From an uncultured Acidimicrobiales bacterium (lineage in GTDB: Bacteria > Actinomycetota > Acidimicrobiia > Acidimicrobiales > AC-14), in the NCBI GenBank assembly GCA_902805665.1, contig CADCTB010000159.1:495-51353 (forward strand): a stretch of 50,859 nt of DNA. The letters run 5' to 3'. This document shows positions 6,001-44,030 of this stretch, in pieces. The notes beneath the pieces were generated by a model. That model did not search any database. It was given only the letters and a program-made list of their open reading frames with translations, and was not told the origin of the DNA. Each line of letters starts with the position of its first letter. Position 1 is the first letter of the stretch. A program made the position numbers and the translations under genes.

Positions 6001-6583
6001 GCACGGGGTGCTGGCCTCCATGCTCGCCCTCGCGGACGCCGAGCTCGGGAAGGTCGACCGGGCCCGGGCCTCGCTTGACCGGTTCGCCGGCGACGAGCCT
6101 CGCCGAGGCGCCGCCCCCTTGTCCGCGGAGCTCGCGTACCTGGCCGAGGTGGCCGATGCCCTGGTGGACCGGCGCCATGCCGCCCGGCTCTATGACCGGT
6201 TGCATCCGCTGGCCGGGCAGATGGTGGCCGCCGGGGCGGTGGCCCACTGCCCGGGTGCCGTCGACCGTTACCTCGGTCTGCTCGCCGCCACACTGGGGCG
6301 ACTCGACGCGGCCGACGTCCACTTCGCGGAGGCGCTGCGTTTGGAAGCCGGCATGCGGTCACCGCCTCTTCTCGCTCGCACCCGGTTGCGGTACGGAGGC
6401 ATGCTCCTGGACAGGGGAGCGCCCGGCGACGCGGCCGAATCCCGCCGGCTCCTCGAAGAAGCGCTGGCGACCGCGGAGCGCCTCGGCATGGCTAGCGTTG
6501 CTGCGCAGGCCGCCGATCTTGCTGGGACGGTGACAAGTCGACGGAGCCTCTACGCGTCCTCTACAGGCGTGTCCGTACAGTGA
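3008..6583 (+). CDS. SARP-like regulator: winged helix, BTAD, STAND ATPase, TPR region (copy 1)
   Basis: A 1191-residue cytoplasmic activator. Residues 1-100 are an OmpR-type winged helix (GLGRLGRLALAYLVCERHRP, DELAEVLWGEDLP). Residues 100-250 are the BTAD helical domain (EAIAIEPFRESAYLALMAAH). A P-loop GGEPGIGKTT lies near 308-317 and Walker B LILDDLHWA near 420. The rest is helical, TPR-like repeats ending in a family motif around AVDRYLG and SPPLLARTR. Family knowledge: such proteins activate promoters after ligand- or nucleotide-driven oligomerisation. The GTG start has no obvious Shine-Dalgarno. The last codons overlap the SARP-type promoter of the next gene. It is closest to the regulator at 40496. 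Confidence 0.92.
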   Translation: MLVRVTVAGRVGIEVGGVHTGEAGLGRLGRLALAYLVCERHRPVARDELAEVLWGEDLPASWEQLLRGQASKLRATFGQAGLDPGGTLTSALGAYQVHLPPGAVLDVDEAAANVEAAGAALAGGNPAEARRRAAAAKAVAARQFLPAASGAWVERRQAELREVHLRALEVLVRAAAEDGLWGEAIDAAEEAIAIEPFRESAYLALMAAHAAAGSRGEAIRAYERCRRVLAEELGVRPSPATEEAFLDLLGDEPAPVSEEVTPSAPLRLPPALVGLAGGVVVGRESDAERLTAALERATAKGRQAVFVGGEPGIGKTTLVAAFAAEAHRQGARVLYGRCDEELGLSYQPFAEALSGFVADAPMAELALHAAAHGGELARLAPELTRRLSDVTVPPSTDPEGDRYWLFDAVTSMLKSAAARAPVVLILDDLHWAAPPTLVLLRHLLRATADAALLVVGTYRHTDVGPDHPLTQTLADLHREPAVDRLVLQGLDGDGVGAFLQAARGGTPSDDDVPLVRALHVHTAGNPFFVGQLLQHLGETGATYRREGTWSYYADIEDLGIPEGVREVVGRRLQRLSEPTREVLRWGAVIGTEFGLDVLDQVEGLAGMDALLDAVDDAVQSHLAAERGASRYRFTHALVRDTIYAELTLTRRAQWHRRVAEALELLPVDDAHRLPALVHHFAAAASAGGAPRAADYALAASRQALTHSAWEDALAFLERGLQALAAAEPPDLERRCDLLLVVAETWCRVWEPPRALPAATEAVATARSLGDPERMANAARWYITGQTRPDPATITVADEALAALGDRRPDLRAILLARLAPPKRFAGDMTRDALDLARRSGSRDALGVALLMRSVDLGFSGQAVERLEVAEELVTAAPPDGWDGWRGGHEQRAAARIAVGDRAGFEADAAACERIGREKRFWFYRARAALWRGTSALLDGRFDEVEALVEEFRAVATASVGPSAPRDLPAIQLVRLALDRGTPMEAETILTAGLEQSPGHGVLASMLALADAELGKVDRARASLDRFAGDEPRRGAAPLSAELAYLAEVADALVDRRHAARLYDRLHPLAGQMVAAGAVAHCPGAVDRYLGLLAATLGRLDAADVHFAEALRLEAGMRSPPLLARTRLRYGGMLLDRGAPGDAAESRRLLEEALATAERLGMASVAAQAADLAGTVTSRRSLYASSTGVSVQ
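6539..6581 (+). promoter_or_regulatory. SARP-type box and -10 of binding-protein gene 1
   Basis: CTAC cores start at 6550 and 6561 (11 bp), with an imperfect CGAC at 6539 completing a triplet. TACAGT (6576-6581) begins exactly 15 nt after the last core and overlaps the stop codon of the regulator upstream. The predicted start site is about 24 nt before the GTG at 6612. Confidence 0.8.
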
Positions 6584-13230: not shown

Positions 13231-13293
13231 AACCTACGAACCGGCCGTAGATCTGGCGTAGAGGCTCCGTGACCGGCTGTAGACGTTCTGTAG
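13231..13293 (-). promoter_or_regulatory. Double SARP-type box and -10 of FtsH operon 1
   Basis: On the minus strand, CTAC cores start at 13293, 13282, 13261 and 13250: two 11-bp pairs separated by 21 bp. TAGGTT (13236-13231) begins 14 nt after the last. The same double arrangement precedes FtsH operon 2. Confidence 0.8.
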
Positions 13294-15223: not shown

Positions 15224-15266
15224 AACCTAAGGACCGAGGCGTAGGTGCGGTGTAGGCCTCGTGTAG
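15224..15266 (-). promoter_or_regulatory. SARP-type box and -10 of the 14428 gene
   Basis: Minus-strand CTAC cores start at 15266, 15255 and 15244 (11-bp pitch). TAGGTT (15229-15224) begins 15 nt after the last. The predicted leader is about 140 nt. Confidence 0.8.
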
Positions 15267-18986: not shown

Positions 18987-19018
18987 CTACGCGACATCTA
19001 CACGCGGTGGGTCACGAT
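18987..19018 (+). promoter_or_regulatory. SARP-type box of the DUF1059/binding-protein 2 operon
   Basis: CTAC cores start at 18987 and 18998 (11 bp). CACGAT, a weak TAnnnT relative, begins 15 nt after the second. It ends 8 nt before the ATG at 19027, so the transcript would be almost leaderless. Confidence 0.65.
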
Positions 19019-19026
19019 TTAGCTCC

Positions 19027-19191
19027 ATGAGGGTGATTCGCTGCGACTGCGGCTTCGAGGCGACCGGAGACGGCGACGAGGAGCTGGTCAGCCGGGCGCA
19101 GAATCACGCCCTCGAGGTCCACCGCGTGGAGATGGCCGCCGAGTTCGTGCTCGGCCTGGCCAAGGCCAAAGTGCAAACCCCCGAGAATTGA
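19027..19191 (+). CDS. DUF1059-like mini-protein (copy 1)
   Basis: 54 residues: a CDCGF motif near the start, an acidic turn (GDGDEEL), and a helix with HALEVH. This is the pattern of DUF1059 proteins. The Cys pair could bind metal; that is inference. It starts close behind a SARP-type promoter and ends 6 nt before the binding-protein gene, so the two are co-transcribed. Related genes lie at 30115, 39713 and 40161. Confidence 0.8.
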   Translation: MRVIRCDCGFEATGDGDEELVSRAQNHALEVHRVEMAAEFVLGLAKAKVQTPEN

Positions 19192-25266: not shown

Positions 25267-25330
25267 AACCTACGAACCGCCGCGTAGACCTGATGTAGAC
25301 GTCCGTCCACCGCCCGTAGACGTTCTGTAG
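25267..25330 (-). promoter_or_regulatory. Double SARP-type box and -10 of FtsH operon 2
   Basis: Minus-strand CTAC cores start at 25330, 25319, 25298 and 25287: 11, 21 and 11 bp apart. TAGGTT (25272-25267) begins 15 nt after the last. The layout matches operon 1 although the spacer sequence has drifted. Confidence 0.8.
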
Positions 25331-25983: not shown

Positions 25984-26025
25984 CTACGCGGCCTCTACGG
26001 GCGATCTACAGACGATCCCTAGTTT
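25984..26025 (+). promoter_or_regulatory. SARP-type box and -10 of the cupredoxin gene
   Basis: CTAC cores start at 25984, 25995 and 26006 (11-bp pitch). TAGTTT begins at 26020, 14 nt after the last. The predicted leader is about 75 nt. Confidence 0.8.
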
Positions 26026-26692: not shown

Positions 26693-27294
26693 CGCCCTAC
26701 CGGCGGGACCTGGCGGTCGACACAGCTCATGCGAGGCGCCGGGTGGGCCGGAGTCGGGGACGGGATCCGGACGAAAGGTGACCAGAGGGTTCAGCTCGAC
26801 TCGGCGGCCTTGTGGGGGACAGGAGCGTCCAGCTCCAGGACGAAATCCTCCAGAGCCAGTGGGAAGAGGCGGGATTCGAACTGCGGCTGAGCAACGTCTC
26901 CAACCAGGCCGACCTCCTACGGCGGGGGGCCTTCCACGTCAGCTTCACCACCGGCGCGTTCACCAACGACGAACCCCAGCCCGCTGTGGACTCCTGTGCT
27001 CCCGCAACTACGACGGAGGCGGACCTCGCAGGCGAGAACCTCAGCCGGGTGGCCGACCGCCCGCGATGCAGCCCGGGACCGGGTCAACAAGAAATCGAGG
27101 AGACTAGGCGCATGGATGCTCTCAAGTCGGCCTACGAGATCACGGCCGACCTGGTCCCCTTCCTTCCGCGTGCTCCCGGCATCTCCCTTCTCGTCTACAA
27201 CTCGTCACGACTCGCGGATATCGGCAACGACGGTGGGCCGACGGGCCCGTTCTTCGACACCACAACGTGGTTCTGCCGGGCCGGCCGCTGCTAG
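26693..27294 (+). pseudogene. C-terminal relic of a solute-binding protein (paralogue of 6612 and 44058)
   Basis: The DNA resumes binding-protein similarity at the YRRDL segment, about two thirds into the gene, 58 bp after the cupredoxin stop. Frameshifts break it near 26812 and 27060. The final stretch (DALKSAYEITADLVPFLP, LLVYNSSRL, CRAGRC) is intact and still overlaps the ATPase start by 28 nt. The N-terminal two thirds, including the lipobox, is gone. Translation of this remnant could still help the ATPase start. Confidence 0.75.
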
Positions 27295-29319: not shown

Positions 29320-29362
29320 CTACACGGCGTCTACAGCTGGTCTACGGCTCACTCCGTAGGTT
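29320..29362 (+). promoter_or_regulatory. SARP-type box and -10 of the 29396 gene
   Basis: CTAC cores start at 29320, 29331 and 29342, each in a GTCTAC context at exact 11-bp pitch. TAGGTT begins at 29357, 15 nt after the last. This mirrors the hydrolase box at 2920 in perfect geometry. Confidence 0.85.
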
Positions 29363-29395: not shown

Positions 29396-30058
29396 ATGGT
29401 TGCTCAAAGTCTGCGGCGGACGACCGCATACGTCGGCGGGACGTTCACGGCGCTGTTCTGGGTAGGGATGTCCTTGTCGGGTGAGGTGCCCGAGGAGAAG
29501 GCTCCTGCGGCGGAGGTGATCTCCTTCTACACCGACCACGCCAGCCGGGTCCGGATCAGCGCGTTCGTCGCGGTGGCGGCGGCCGTCGTAATCCTGTTCT
29601 TCGGGGGTGCATTGCGGGCCGCCATGCGAGGCGATGACGACGCCAGTGGCTGGGGGGGAATGCTGGCCACCGTTCTCTTCGGTGGGTCGGTCGCCTATGC
29701 CCTGGGTCTCGCCGGGTTCGCGGTCACCTCGTTCGCGGTTGTCGAGGCGGCGGAGCTCGGTCAGCCCGAGGTGGCCAAGGCGCTGAACCTGCTGGACAGC
29801 AGCAACTTCTTCCCGACAGTTGTCGGAATCTCAGCGATGATGCTCGCCACGGGCATCCGTTCCCGGCAGGCGCGCCTGCTCCCCGGGTGGCTGGCGTGGG
29901 CGTCGATAGTCGTCGGCGCACTCGCACCCGCGGGCATCGCGGGGTTCGTGGCCTTCATGATCTTCCCGTTGTGGGTCGTCGTAGTCGGCGTGACCGTCGC
30001 CCGCAGGACGCCCGAGCGAGCCGCTCGCCGCCAGGCGGCCGATACGGTGGCCGTCTGA
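29396..30058 (+). CDS. Integral membrane protein of unknown function
   Basis: 220 residues with about five hydrophobic segments (GGTFTALFWVGMSLS, FVAVAAAVVILFFGGAL, GMLATVLFGGSVAYALG, WASIVVGALAPAGIAGFV and IFPLWVVVVGVTVA). A polar stretch (GEVPEEKAPAAEVISFY) follows the first. Proteins of this pattern are common actinobacterial hypotheticals; I know no function. A strong GGAGGAGGAAGG site precedes the ATG. Confidence 0.8.
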   Translation: MVAQSLRRTTAYVGGTFTALFWVGMSLSGEVPEEKAPAAEVISFYTDHASRVRISAFVAVAAAVVILFFGGALRAAMRGDDDASGWGGMLATVLFGGSVAYALGLAGFAVTSFAVVEAAELGQPEVAKALNLLDSSNFFPTVVGISAMMLATGIRSRQARLLPGWLAWASIVVGALAPAGIAGFVAFMIFPLWVVVVGVTVARRTPERAARRQAADTVAV

Positions 30059-30114
30059 TCTCCGAGCTACGGCCGGTCTACCGGATCTCTGCACGTGATC
30101 CGGACCATGACGAC

Positions 30115-30309
30115 GTGAGAGTCATTGCGCTGCGACTGCGGTTCGAGGTGTCGGCCGACGCCGGGCACGAGCTGGTGGAGGTCGCACAGGCCCACGCCCG
30201 CGAGATGCACGGCATGGAGCTGCCGGCGGAGCTGGTGCTGGCTCTTGCCCGCGCCGCTTCACGGGGCCGGCCACCGCGGATACGGGCGATGAGGACGGCG
30301 CCGCGCTGA
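30115..30309 (+). CDS. DUF1059-like mini-protein with Cys motif erased by a compensated frameshift
   Basis: 64 residues from GTG 30115. The C-terminal half (HAREMHGMELPAELVLALAR) is typical of the mini-proteins here. At the start, one G is inserted after ATT and one C is lost 15 nt later, so the usual RCDCG is read as ALRLR and the frame is then restored. A degenerate pair of CTAC cores (30067, 30078) lies upstream without a clear -10. It ends 46 nt before the binding-protein gene, as in the 19027-19198 operon. Confidence 0.65.
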   Translation: MRVIALRLRFEVSADAGHELVEVAQAHAREMHGMELPAELVLALARAASRGRPPRIRAMRTAPR

Positions 30310-30355: not shown

Positions 30356-31993
30356 ATGCATTCGGGTCCAGGCCGGCAGCGATCGTTAGTCGTGACCGTC
30401 ATCGCGGCCGCGCTAGTGGCGGCGTGCAGCGGTGGAGGGGACCACCGCGCGGTGGGCCCGGTCACGACCGTCGAGCAGCCGCGCCAAGGGGGGACGATCA
30501 GTATCTCGGTTGGGGAGCCCGTCTGCGCCGACTGGTACGGGCAATGTGGAGCGTCGAACCTGGGCATCGTGGCACTCCAGACGCTGCCATCGCCGATGGA
30601 GTTCAGCGACGGCAAGTACCGCCCGACGCCGCTCCTCGTGGGCGATCCCGTGGTGGACTTTGGGCCGCCCCACCGGGTCACCTATGGCATCGCCCCCGGG
30701 GCGGTGTGGTCGGACGGCACACCGATCACGTCGTCGGACTTCAAGTACACGTGGGAGCAGGCTCGCAGCACCAACGTGCGGGGGATGGGTGATGTCGCCG
30801 CGGTGGACGACGCCGACCCCAAGGCGGCGGTCGTGACGTGGAAGGAGCCGAGTGCCGCCTGGCGGGACCGCTTCCGCCCCATCCTGCCCAGACATCTCCT
30901 GGACGGAAGGGACCGCGCCGCCGAGATGAAGGACGGGTACCGGTTCTCGGGGGGCCCTTGGCTGATCGACCGCTGGACCCGGGGGCAGGAGCTGAAGCTC
31001 GTCCGCAACCCCGCCTACTGGGGGACGCCCGCCCACCTCGATGCTGTCGTCCTGAGGGTCATCAGCGACCCGGCGGCGTCAAGGCAGGCATACAAGTCCA
31101 ATCAGGTCGACATGCTCAATCAGGCCGGGGCCGAGCCGGGCGTCGAGGACATGCGCAACCTGCCCGATACCGGCTTCGTCGAGCTCCCGGGTCTTGGCTA
31201 CAGCTTCCTCGCTTTCAACACCCAGAGTCCGCCACTGGATCGCAAGGCCGTCCGGCATGCGCTCGCATACGCCACCGACCGCGATGCGGTCGTCACCCAG
31301 CTCCAGGGCCACCTCCGGCCCGGCGTCCGACCGTCCCAGTCACTCGCGTCGCTGGCCAACCCGACCTGGTACAGCGAGCCGTTCGCCCGGTACCGCCTCG
31401 ATCTGGCCAAGGTCACGGACCTCATGCGGGCCGACGGTTGGTCGAAAGGCAGCGACGGCGTCTGGATGAAGGCCGACACCCGGGCCCGCATTGAACTGCT
31501 CGTCGACGCCGGCCCGCGATTCCATTCCCTCTTGGCCCAGATCGTCGAGAGCCAGTGGAAGGAGGCCGGCTTCGACGTGACGGTCAAGCGGGCGAACGCC
31601 ACGGCGATAAACGTCGAACTTCTTCCGAGAGGCGCCTACCAGGTCGCCTTCACCGGCGCGTTGGCGACGGTCGTCGATCCAGGCCAATGCGCGCGATTCT
31701 GCTCGAGGAACATCCCGACCGAAGCCTCGCGTTTCGTCGGGGGCAACGTCACACGGGTCATTAGCCCGATGCTCGACGACCTTTGGGCACAGGTGGACAC
31801 CGAGCTCGACACGGCCAGGAGGATCGACCTCGTCCGCCGGGGACAGGAGGCCCTAGCCGAGGAGCTCCCGGCGCTGCCCCTCGCCTCCATCATCGACGTG
31901 TACGTCTTCAACAGTCGGAAGCTCGGTGGGGTGACGGTCGGTCCGGGGCTTCCCAGCCTGCCCGTGTGGTTCTGCCGGACGACTTGCGACTAA
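30356..31993 (+). CDS. ABC oligopeptide-type solute-binding lipoprotein 3
   Basis: 545 residues with lipobox LVAAC (Cys24). Family-5 motifs include WSDGTPITSSDFKYTWEQ, RPILPRHLLDGRDRAAEM and VRHALAYATDRDAVV. The Cys pairs are present: CADWYGQC, CARFC and a slightly shorter terminal CRTTC. It resembles the protein at 19198 most. No permease or ATPase gene follows, so it would have to dock on the shared transporter. No well-formed SARP-type box is seen; it is probably co-transcribed with the 30115 gene. Confidence 0.9.
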   Translation: MHSGPGRQRSLVVTVIAAALVAACSGGGDHRAVGPVTTVEQPRQGGTISISVGEPVCADWYGQCGASNLGIVALQTLPSPMEFSDGKYRPTPLLVGDPVVDFGPPHRVTYGIAPGAVWSDGTPITSSDFKYTWEQARSTNVRGMGDVAAVDDADPKAAVVTWKEPSAAWRDRFRPILPRHLLDGRDRAAEMKDGYRFSGGPWLIDRWTRGQELKLVRNPAYWGTPAHLDAVVLRVISDPAASRQAYKSNQVDMLNQAGAEPGVEDMRNLPDTGFVELPGLGYSFLAFNTQSPPLDRKAVRHALAYATDRDAVVTQLQGHLRPGVRPSQSLASLANPTWYSEPFARYRLDLAKVTDLMRADGWSKGSDGVWMKADTRARIELLVDAGPRFHSLLAQIVESQWKEAGFDVTVKRANATAINVELLPRGAYQVAFTGALATVVDPGQCARFCSRNIPTEASRFVGGNVTRVISPMLDDLWAQVDTELDTARRIDLVRRGQEALAEELPALPLASIIDVYVFNSRKLGGVTVGPGLPSLPVWFCRTTCD

Positions 31994-35323: not shown

Positions 35324-35365
35324 AACCTACGGATGGGCCGTAGATTCCGCGTAGGCCACCCGTAG
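35324..35365 (-). promoter_or_regulatory. SARP-type box and -10 of the 34798 gene
   Basis: Minus-strand CTAC cores start at 35365, 35354 and 35343 (11-bp pitch). TAGGTT (35329-35324) begins 14 nt after the last. Confidence 0.8.
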
Positions 35366-39029: not shown

Positions 39030-39060
39030 CTACAGCGGATCTACAGGCACTTCCTAGGGT
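39030..39060 (+). promoter_or_regulatory. SARP-type box and -10 of the 39115 gene
   Basis: CTAC cores start at 39030 and 39041 (11 bp), both in GATCTACAG context. TAGGGT begins at 39055, 14 nt after the second. Confidence 0.8.
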
Positions 39061-39712: not shown

Positions 39713-39877
39713 ATGAGAGTTATGCGGTGCGACTGTGGCTTCGGAGTGACGGGAGACGGCGACGACGAGCTGGTCACGCGGGCCCAGACCCACGCCCGGG
39801 AGGTGCAGAGCATGGATCTCCCCGCAGAGCTGGTGCTATTGTTGGCCAAATCCACGACGGAGCGCCCCCGCGACTAG
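39713..39877 (+). CDS. DUF1059-like mini-protein (copy 3)
   Basis: 54 residues starting ATG 39713, with RCDCGF near the start and HAREVQ and LPAELVLLLAK helices. CACGGT, 8 nt upstream, parallels the CACGAT before the 19027 gene, again suggesting a near-leaderless message. Degenerate TTAC cores lie at 39673 and 39685 (12 bp apart). No binding-protein gene follows; another mini-gene does. Confidence 0.75.
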   Translation: MRVMRCDCGFGVTGDGDDELVTRAQTHAREVQSMDLPAELVLLLAKSTTERPRD

Positions 39878-40105: not shown

Positions 40106-40136
40106 CTACGGGAAATCTACAAGCGATTCGTACGGT
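40106..40136 (+). promoter_or_regulatory. SARP-type box and -10 of the 40161 gene
   Basis: CTAC cores start at 40106 and 40117 (11 bp). TACGGT begins at 40131, 14 nt after the second. Confidence 0.7.
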
Positions 40137-40160: not shown

Positions 40161-40343
40161 ATGCAGAGGGTCATTCGATGCGACTGCGGCTTCGAAGCGA
40201 CCGGGATTTCAGACGACGACCTGGTGCCGGTCGCTCAGGCCCACGCCAGCGCGGCCCACGACATCAAGCTATCGGCCGATCTGCTCCTGGCGTTGGCTCG
40301 CCCTCATCCCGGGCCGGCAACCCCGACCAAGCAAGAGACGTGA
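40161..40343 (+). CDS. DUF1059-like mini-protein (copy 4)
   Basis: 60 residues: RCDCGFEATG at the start, an acidic turn (SDDDL), then HASAAHDIKLSADLLLALAR and a polar tail. Unlike the other copies it has a normal leader with GAGGGAGG before the ATG. The binding-protein gene expected next is missing. The following DNA jumps to a permease start relic at 40417, then to regulator 4. Confidence 0.78.
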   Translation: MQRVIRCDCGFEATGISDDDLVPVAQAHASAAHDIKLSADLLLALARPHPGPATPTKQET

Positions 40344-43987: not shown

Positions 43988-44030
43988 CGACGACACCTCT
44001 ACGCGTTCTCTACACGCTCCTCCGTAGATT
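43988..44030 (+). promoter_or_regulatory. SARP-type box and -10 of binding-protein gene 4
   Basis: CTAC cores start at 43999 and 44010 with an imperfect CGAC at 43988, all at 11-bp pitch. TAGATT begins at 44025, 15 nt after the last. Even the degenerate CGAC is shared with the box at 6539. Confidence 0.8.

Follow-up and report, generated by a model that had tools for sequence, protein, structure and literature searches.

One copy of the DUF1059 mini-gene in an uncultured Acidimicrobiales bacterium, at 30115-30309, has lost the CxC motif that its neighbours carry. This locus raises the question of whether a double frameshift has produced a working protein without cysteines or has broken a gene. 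The second answer is probably correct: the open reading frame (ORF) appears to be a recently frame-broken paralog of the short DUF1059 mini-gene that is becoming a pseudogene. The window, meaning the whole 50,859-nucleotide stretch of DNA that was analysed, is part of contig C159 in an assembly of 3.52 Mb and 227 contigs. It holds four short DUF1059 genes (19027, 30115, 39713 and 40161), while contig C25 of the same genome carries two intact ones and one fragment. The neighbours of the mini-genes are SARP-type regulators (BTAD plus AAA domains) and family-5 solute-binding proteins (SBPs). The window features needed at the outset are as follows.

19027-19191, plus strand: intact short DUF1059 paralog, RCDCG
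30115-30309, plus strand: damaged short-form DUF1059 ORF, 64 aa, GTG start, VRVIALRLRFEV..., without CxC
30127, plus strand: inserted G, frame +1, from base-by-base comparison with 19027
30141-30142, plus strand: junction of a 1-base loss, frame back to the FE-helix; the closest intact paralog has a GGG here, of which one G is missing
30142-30252, plus strand: helical half in the ancestral frame, H27 and H32 kept, coding signature +23 bits
30253-30306, plus strand: tail, probably wrong-frame, +6.3 bits in frame +2 versus -8.0 in the ORF frame
30356-31993, plus strand: intact family-5 SBP gene just 3' of the 30115 ORF
39713-39877, plus strand: intact short DUF1059 paralog, RCDCG
40161-40343, plus strand: intact short DUF1059 paralog, RCDCG

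Two indels and the lost cysteine pair

The 30115 copy opens with the codons GTG AGA GTC ATT GCG CTG CGA CTG CGG TTC GAG, in which the inserted G is the first base of the fifth codon, and 19027 opens with ATG AGG GTG ATT CGC TGC GAC TGC GGC TTC GAG. The respective layouts are GTGAGAGTCATT-G-CGCTGCGACTGCGG-TTCGAG and ATGAGGGTGATT-CGCTGCGACTGCGGC-TTCGAG. The initial annotation had described an extra G directly 3' of ATT and a single base missing after CGCTGCGACTGCGG; base by base, the former is 30127 and the latter falls between 30141 and 30142. The net change is one base gained and one lost, with 14 of 14 nucleotides between the indels matching 19027. RCDCG is turned into ALRLR and both Cys are gone, after which FE and the helix follow in the old frame, so the compensated +1/-1 shift is real. 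ALRLR is the other-frame reading of the RCDCG codons, and the same frame in the intact window copies gives LRLRLR, VRLWLR and MRLRLR. The ORF ends with the TGA at 30309.

The nearest intact paralog lies on contig C25 (C25:21899); its helix is 62% identical to that of 30115, as is its SBP neighbour to the SBP beside 30115. It starts with GTGAGAGTCATCCGGTGCGACTGCGGGTTCGAGGTGTC, and the 3' loss in 30115 aligns to one G of its GGG run, as a homopolymer slip would give. The gained G corresponds to one extra TGCG within the TGCGCTGCGACTGCGG stretch of 30115, which suggests that this base may also have been added by slippage.

Family membership, helix and tail

The 30115 product matches DUF1059 (PF06348) with 26.1 bits against a curated cut-off of 21.1, over residues 10-41, and this match begins only downstream of the Cys motif position. 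A caution follows for annotation, as the family model counts 30115 as a member despite the lost Cys pair. The N-terminal Cys pair, which the short form has as CxC and the long form as two spaced Cys, is absent from 30115; this criterion is the present analysis's own and not Pfam's. HxxxxH in the first helix, likewise a criterion of this analysis, is present, with H27 and H32 aligned with 19027; the intact 39713 copy has Q at the second His.

Frames were scored by codon usage trained on eight long open window ORFs (19,245 bases). The helix of 30115 scores +23, where the three intact window copies span +14 to +28, and among 344 coding windows its score ranks at the 94.5th percentile. In the short and poorly conserved tail, frame +2 leads the ORF frame by 14.3 bits. 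Another frame was so far ahead in 0 of 701 control coding windows, which overlap partly and were each scored with their own gene out of training. When the tail was shuffled 5000 times, a gap at least as large arose in 165 cases and a best-frame score of +6.3 or more in 21. For the three intact paralog tails scored, the own-frame values span only -4.6 to +0.8, and that of 40161 lies below both other frames. Read in frame +2, the 30115 tail gives TGPATADTGDEDG, in a style like the 40161 tail, PHPGPATPTKQET. Codon statistics thus make a third frame change in the tail likely. The earlier statement that both frame and helix remain intact stands for the helix and is doubtful for the frame. A longer ORF of 140 aa at 29887-30309 was also considered and rejected as a real gene, because the part scored upstream of 30115 (29995-30114) lacks a clear coding signature in the frame of this ORF.

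Relatives in the order and a second broken copy

An HMM that covers only the helix and does not see the Cys stretch was run against 397 genomes of the order. With no more than 19 candidates scored in each genome, it gave 33 matches, 30115 counted, in 20 genomes. When the sequence 5' of each helix match was read, 31 of the 33 had two Cys (CxC, CPPC, or the spaced pair of the long form). The two exceptions are 30115 and the following copy, which share a genome and each lie upstream of an SBP gene.

C25:25202-25300 (locus L074:7702-7800): a second short DUF1059 copy that is broken, with an intact SBP gene directly 3' of it

This copy keeps LVARAQDHAQRAHGM and then loses the frame after HGM; its 5' half is unrecognisable and the CxC half is gone. 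Its downstream SBP gene encodes a product 86.6% identical to that of C25:22078, an SBP gene whose mini-gene is intact. This identity indicates that after a duplication one mini-gene decayed and both SBP genes stayed open. Elsewhere in the window, an SBP remnant at 26714-27291 (plus strand) comprises the C-terminal third, with 65% identity across 164 aa to the product of 44052, and is frameshifted near 26806-26821; duplicates do decay in this cluster.

Orthologs of the damaged locus were sought in two ways. With the mini-gene as query, 60 genomes gave matches in four including its own, and all seven matches outside its own genome have CxC. The initial annotation had proposed a look for the same variant in related strains; none of these seven is a counterpart. 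With the SBP as query, nothing in 21 genomes exceeded 62% identity except the query itself. Used on named genomes, in a search that may omit records of the same or a very near genome, the SBP query returned two loci, both distant, at 36% and 23% identity, the better one in an Acidimicrobiales MAG.

Age of the break and selection on the helix

Compared with 12 intact copies, the 30115 helix has five unseen residues, and the intact copies have 1 to 13 each. It departs once, by an unseen residue, from a column common to at least nine of the 12 others (D8 to G). On the terminal branch of 30115, omega=1 is rejected (2dlnL 7.07) in a degenerate fit with saturated dS and a branch length that ran off; the same fit gives no difference between this branch and the background (2dlnL 2.07). 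The rejection extends to six of the 12 intact branches (2dlnL above 3.84). Because of the saturated dS and runaway branch length, the test is silent on recent time. The proposed check for purifying selection on the helical half has a divided result: no relaxation is seen, by omega or by the high codon score, but the fit is degenerate. With no ortholog found in the genomes searched, the helix results fit a young break and continued selection alike.

A further measure comes from the shifted block, where 0 of 14 differences from 19027 limit neutral divergence since the shift to about 19% per site or less (1-0.05^(1/14)). Together, the 14 matching nucleotides and the unrelaxed helix indicate that the break is probably young.

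Probable decay of a duplicate and competing explanations

Relative to its intact paralogs, 30115 carries two frame-disrupting changes seen base by base and a probable third from codon statistics. In the favoured reading of a young pseudogene, the TGCG-rich start would have gained a base, and a G run 14 bases further on would have lost one. This would have turned CxC, probably a metal or redox site, into ALRLR, and a probable further indel would have shifted the tail into the wrong frame. The helix alone would still stand in its old frame, there having been too little time for decay. From this evidence we infer both the loss of function and the youth of the break. Two features count against decay: no relaxation is seen in the helix, and a frame-restoring second indel is what selection on the helix would favour. 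An intact helix is, at the same time, also the expected outcome of a young break.

The same restoration is one argument for a working variant without Cys, in which the HxxxxH helix would be kept for a role free of metal or redox chemistry, such as binding the partner of the intact copies in competition with them. The helix frame returns 14 bases after its loss, the helix is as well kept as in intact copies, and the start codon and two of three upstream CTAC boxes are present. This explanation is nevertheless unlikely: the only other example among the 33 matches is a more broken copy, the tail is probably out of frame, and none of the searches (60 genomes by mini-gene; 21 genomes and the named genomes by SBP) found an ortholog. 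A bolder version is distinctly improbable: here the double frameshift would have turned a mini-gene into a regulator, a new Cys-less DUF1059 that is expressed and uses its helix-and-His half to bind the intact copies' partner and so to block or tune these copies. In the initial annotation, the compensated shift and the kept helix were well founded; for the residual role or new variant drawn from them no positive evidence was obtained, and the probable tail frame change, the second broken copy and the two Cys in 31 of 33 matches leave that inference unsupported.

That the true gene is intact, and that at least one of the indels is an error of sequencing or assembly, could be argued from the 227-contig assembly and from the position of one indel at the G run of the nearest paralog. 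Such an origin is very unlikely: it would take two errors of opposite sign within 14 bases of each other, and probably another one in the tail, at a low background rate, given that the eight homology-supported ORFs of the window are open throughout their 19,245 bases. A functional product still made by ribosomal frameshifting, with initiation at the TTG at 30125 from which the CxC frame is open across LRCDCGS, is scarcely credible, with no slippery heptamer seen by eye at TGC GGT TCG, the usual start position in another frame, a TGA at 30116 in the CxC frame, and a tail that would remain out of frame.

Decay of a duplicate is on its own a minor, ordinary event; it shows how mini-gene duplicates arise and die beside transporter genes. 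If a Cys-less product were made, it would provide a natural test of which half of the uncharacterised DUF1059 family matters.

Gene cluster and upstream boxes

Upstream of the damaged gene lies a short array of repeats.

30067-30092, plus strand: three boxes, CTAC-N7-CTAC-N7-CTGC, 11-bp period, 5' of the 30115 start; the third box deviates

Such arrays recur in the window, where several CTAC boxes with an 11-bp period are followed by TAGGTT or a similar sequence. At spacing 11 there are 20 CTAC pairs, and no other spacing between 5 and 60 has more than five. Repeat matches with at most one mismatch number 35, compared with 11.9 +/- 3.4 in 100 shuffles, none of which reached 35. The sites are 2926-2962, 6550-6575, 13236-13293, 15230-15266, 18987-19012, 25273-25330, 25984-26020, 29320-29356, 30067-30092, 35329-35365, 39030-39055, 40106-40131 and 43999-44024. 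By eye, several stand directly 5' of gene starts (6612, 19027, 29396, 30115, 40161 and 44052). The boxes look like a candidate SARP operator common to the cluster. Promoter decay was rejected as a sign that 30115 is dying, as the intact 19027, 39713 and C25:21899 are likewise without a clear TAGGTT. At one intact mini-gene on C25 (L074:4396-4572), the stop codon overlaps the SBP start (GGATGAG), an arrangement that suggests translational coupling of the two genes.

Long-form DUF1059 with in-frame TGA

Long-form genes of the family can have an in-frame TGA in place of the first Cys; among 74 matches, 22 hold one TGA. It falls on the first conserved Cys in all 11 loci read, namely 10 of those 22 and L050, whose match starts after its TGA. 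The representative in the genome of 30115 is the following.

C109:13933-14094, minus strand: long-form DUF1059 with in-frame TGA (L001; also L047-L053 and L057-L059)

The TGA-containing form reads MPEFR*RDADHACRWQ, compared with MAYQFACRDNDHQCRWK. The same genome encodes tRNA-Sec (65.2 bits, cut-off 47), SelA (404.6, cut-off 267.9) and SelB (262.4, cut-off 242.25). A stem of the CCTGC...GCAGG type was seen by eye about 19 nt 3' of the TGA in most loci. RNAalifold of the stretch after the TGA in the Sec-like forms gave a weak result, 40 of 200 column shuffles reaching the same energy, and NCBIfam models gave no match to the one TGA-containing form searched. The name DUF1059 is absent from the accessible text of a 2026 review of the prokaryotic selenoproteome (PMC13188914). 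The TGA-containing DUF1059 is probably a selenoprotein form, both in this genome and in its order. If the TGA encodes selenocysteine, the Cys position would be reactive, and a copy without either Cys would be without an active site; for the short form, this argument is carried over from the long form.

Predicted fold of the intact protein

AlphaFold2, run on the four window copies with 19027 first and the damaged copy as one row, predicts a strand-strand-helix-helix fold (mean pLDDT 83.6). In the model, CxC lies between the strands and HxxxxH where the first helix ends. We take this predicted arrangement to resemble a beta-beta-alpha zinc finger. The VIA-align search with the 19027 model has as its top row 2lvh, a zinc finger from an archaeal virus (Z 3.5, rmsd 2.2, 41 aligned). 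Unrelated rows tie with it, so it offers only a hint of a zinc-finger-like fold in intact DUF1059. Foldseek with the same model gave a best E of 2.0 and none below 0.001, and a search by sequence for a solved DUF1059-like structure found none. The CxC of the short form is probably a metal or redox site, a putative role. In the portions of the literature available, DUF1059 appears in a gene list beside a discussion of hydrogenase and in an annotation table.

Comparison with known systems

The cluster is similar to the SARP-LAL regulators, represented by PimR in the available part of the published account (PMC5930380), in its BTAD-plus-AAA regulators and in direct repeats with an 11-bp period; the PimR box given there, CGGCAAG, differs in sequence from CTAC. 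Like the short CxC form of PF06348, 30115 has a helix match above the curated cut-off, HxxxxH, and a position 5' of an SBP gene, as in 19027 and C25:21899. Unlike that form, it has the frame-shifted ALRLR in place of the N-terminal Cys, and its tail is probably in another frame. The closest parallel is C25:25202-25300, also a short DUF1059 remnant without its Cys half directly 5' of an intact SBP gene; with an unrecognisable 5' half and the frame lost after HGM, it is the more decayed of the two.
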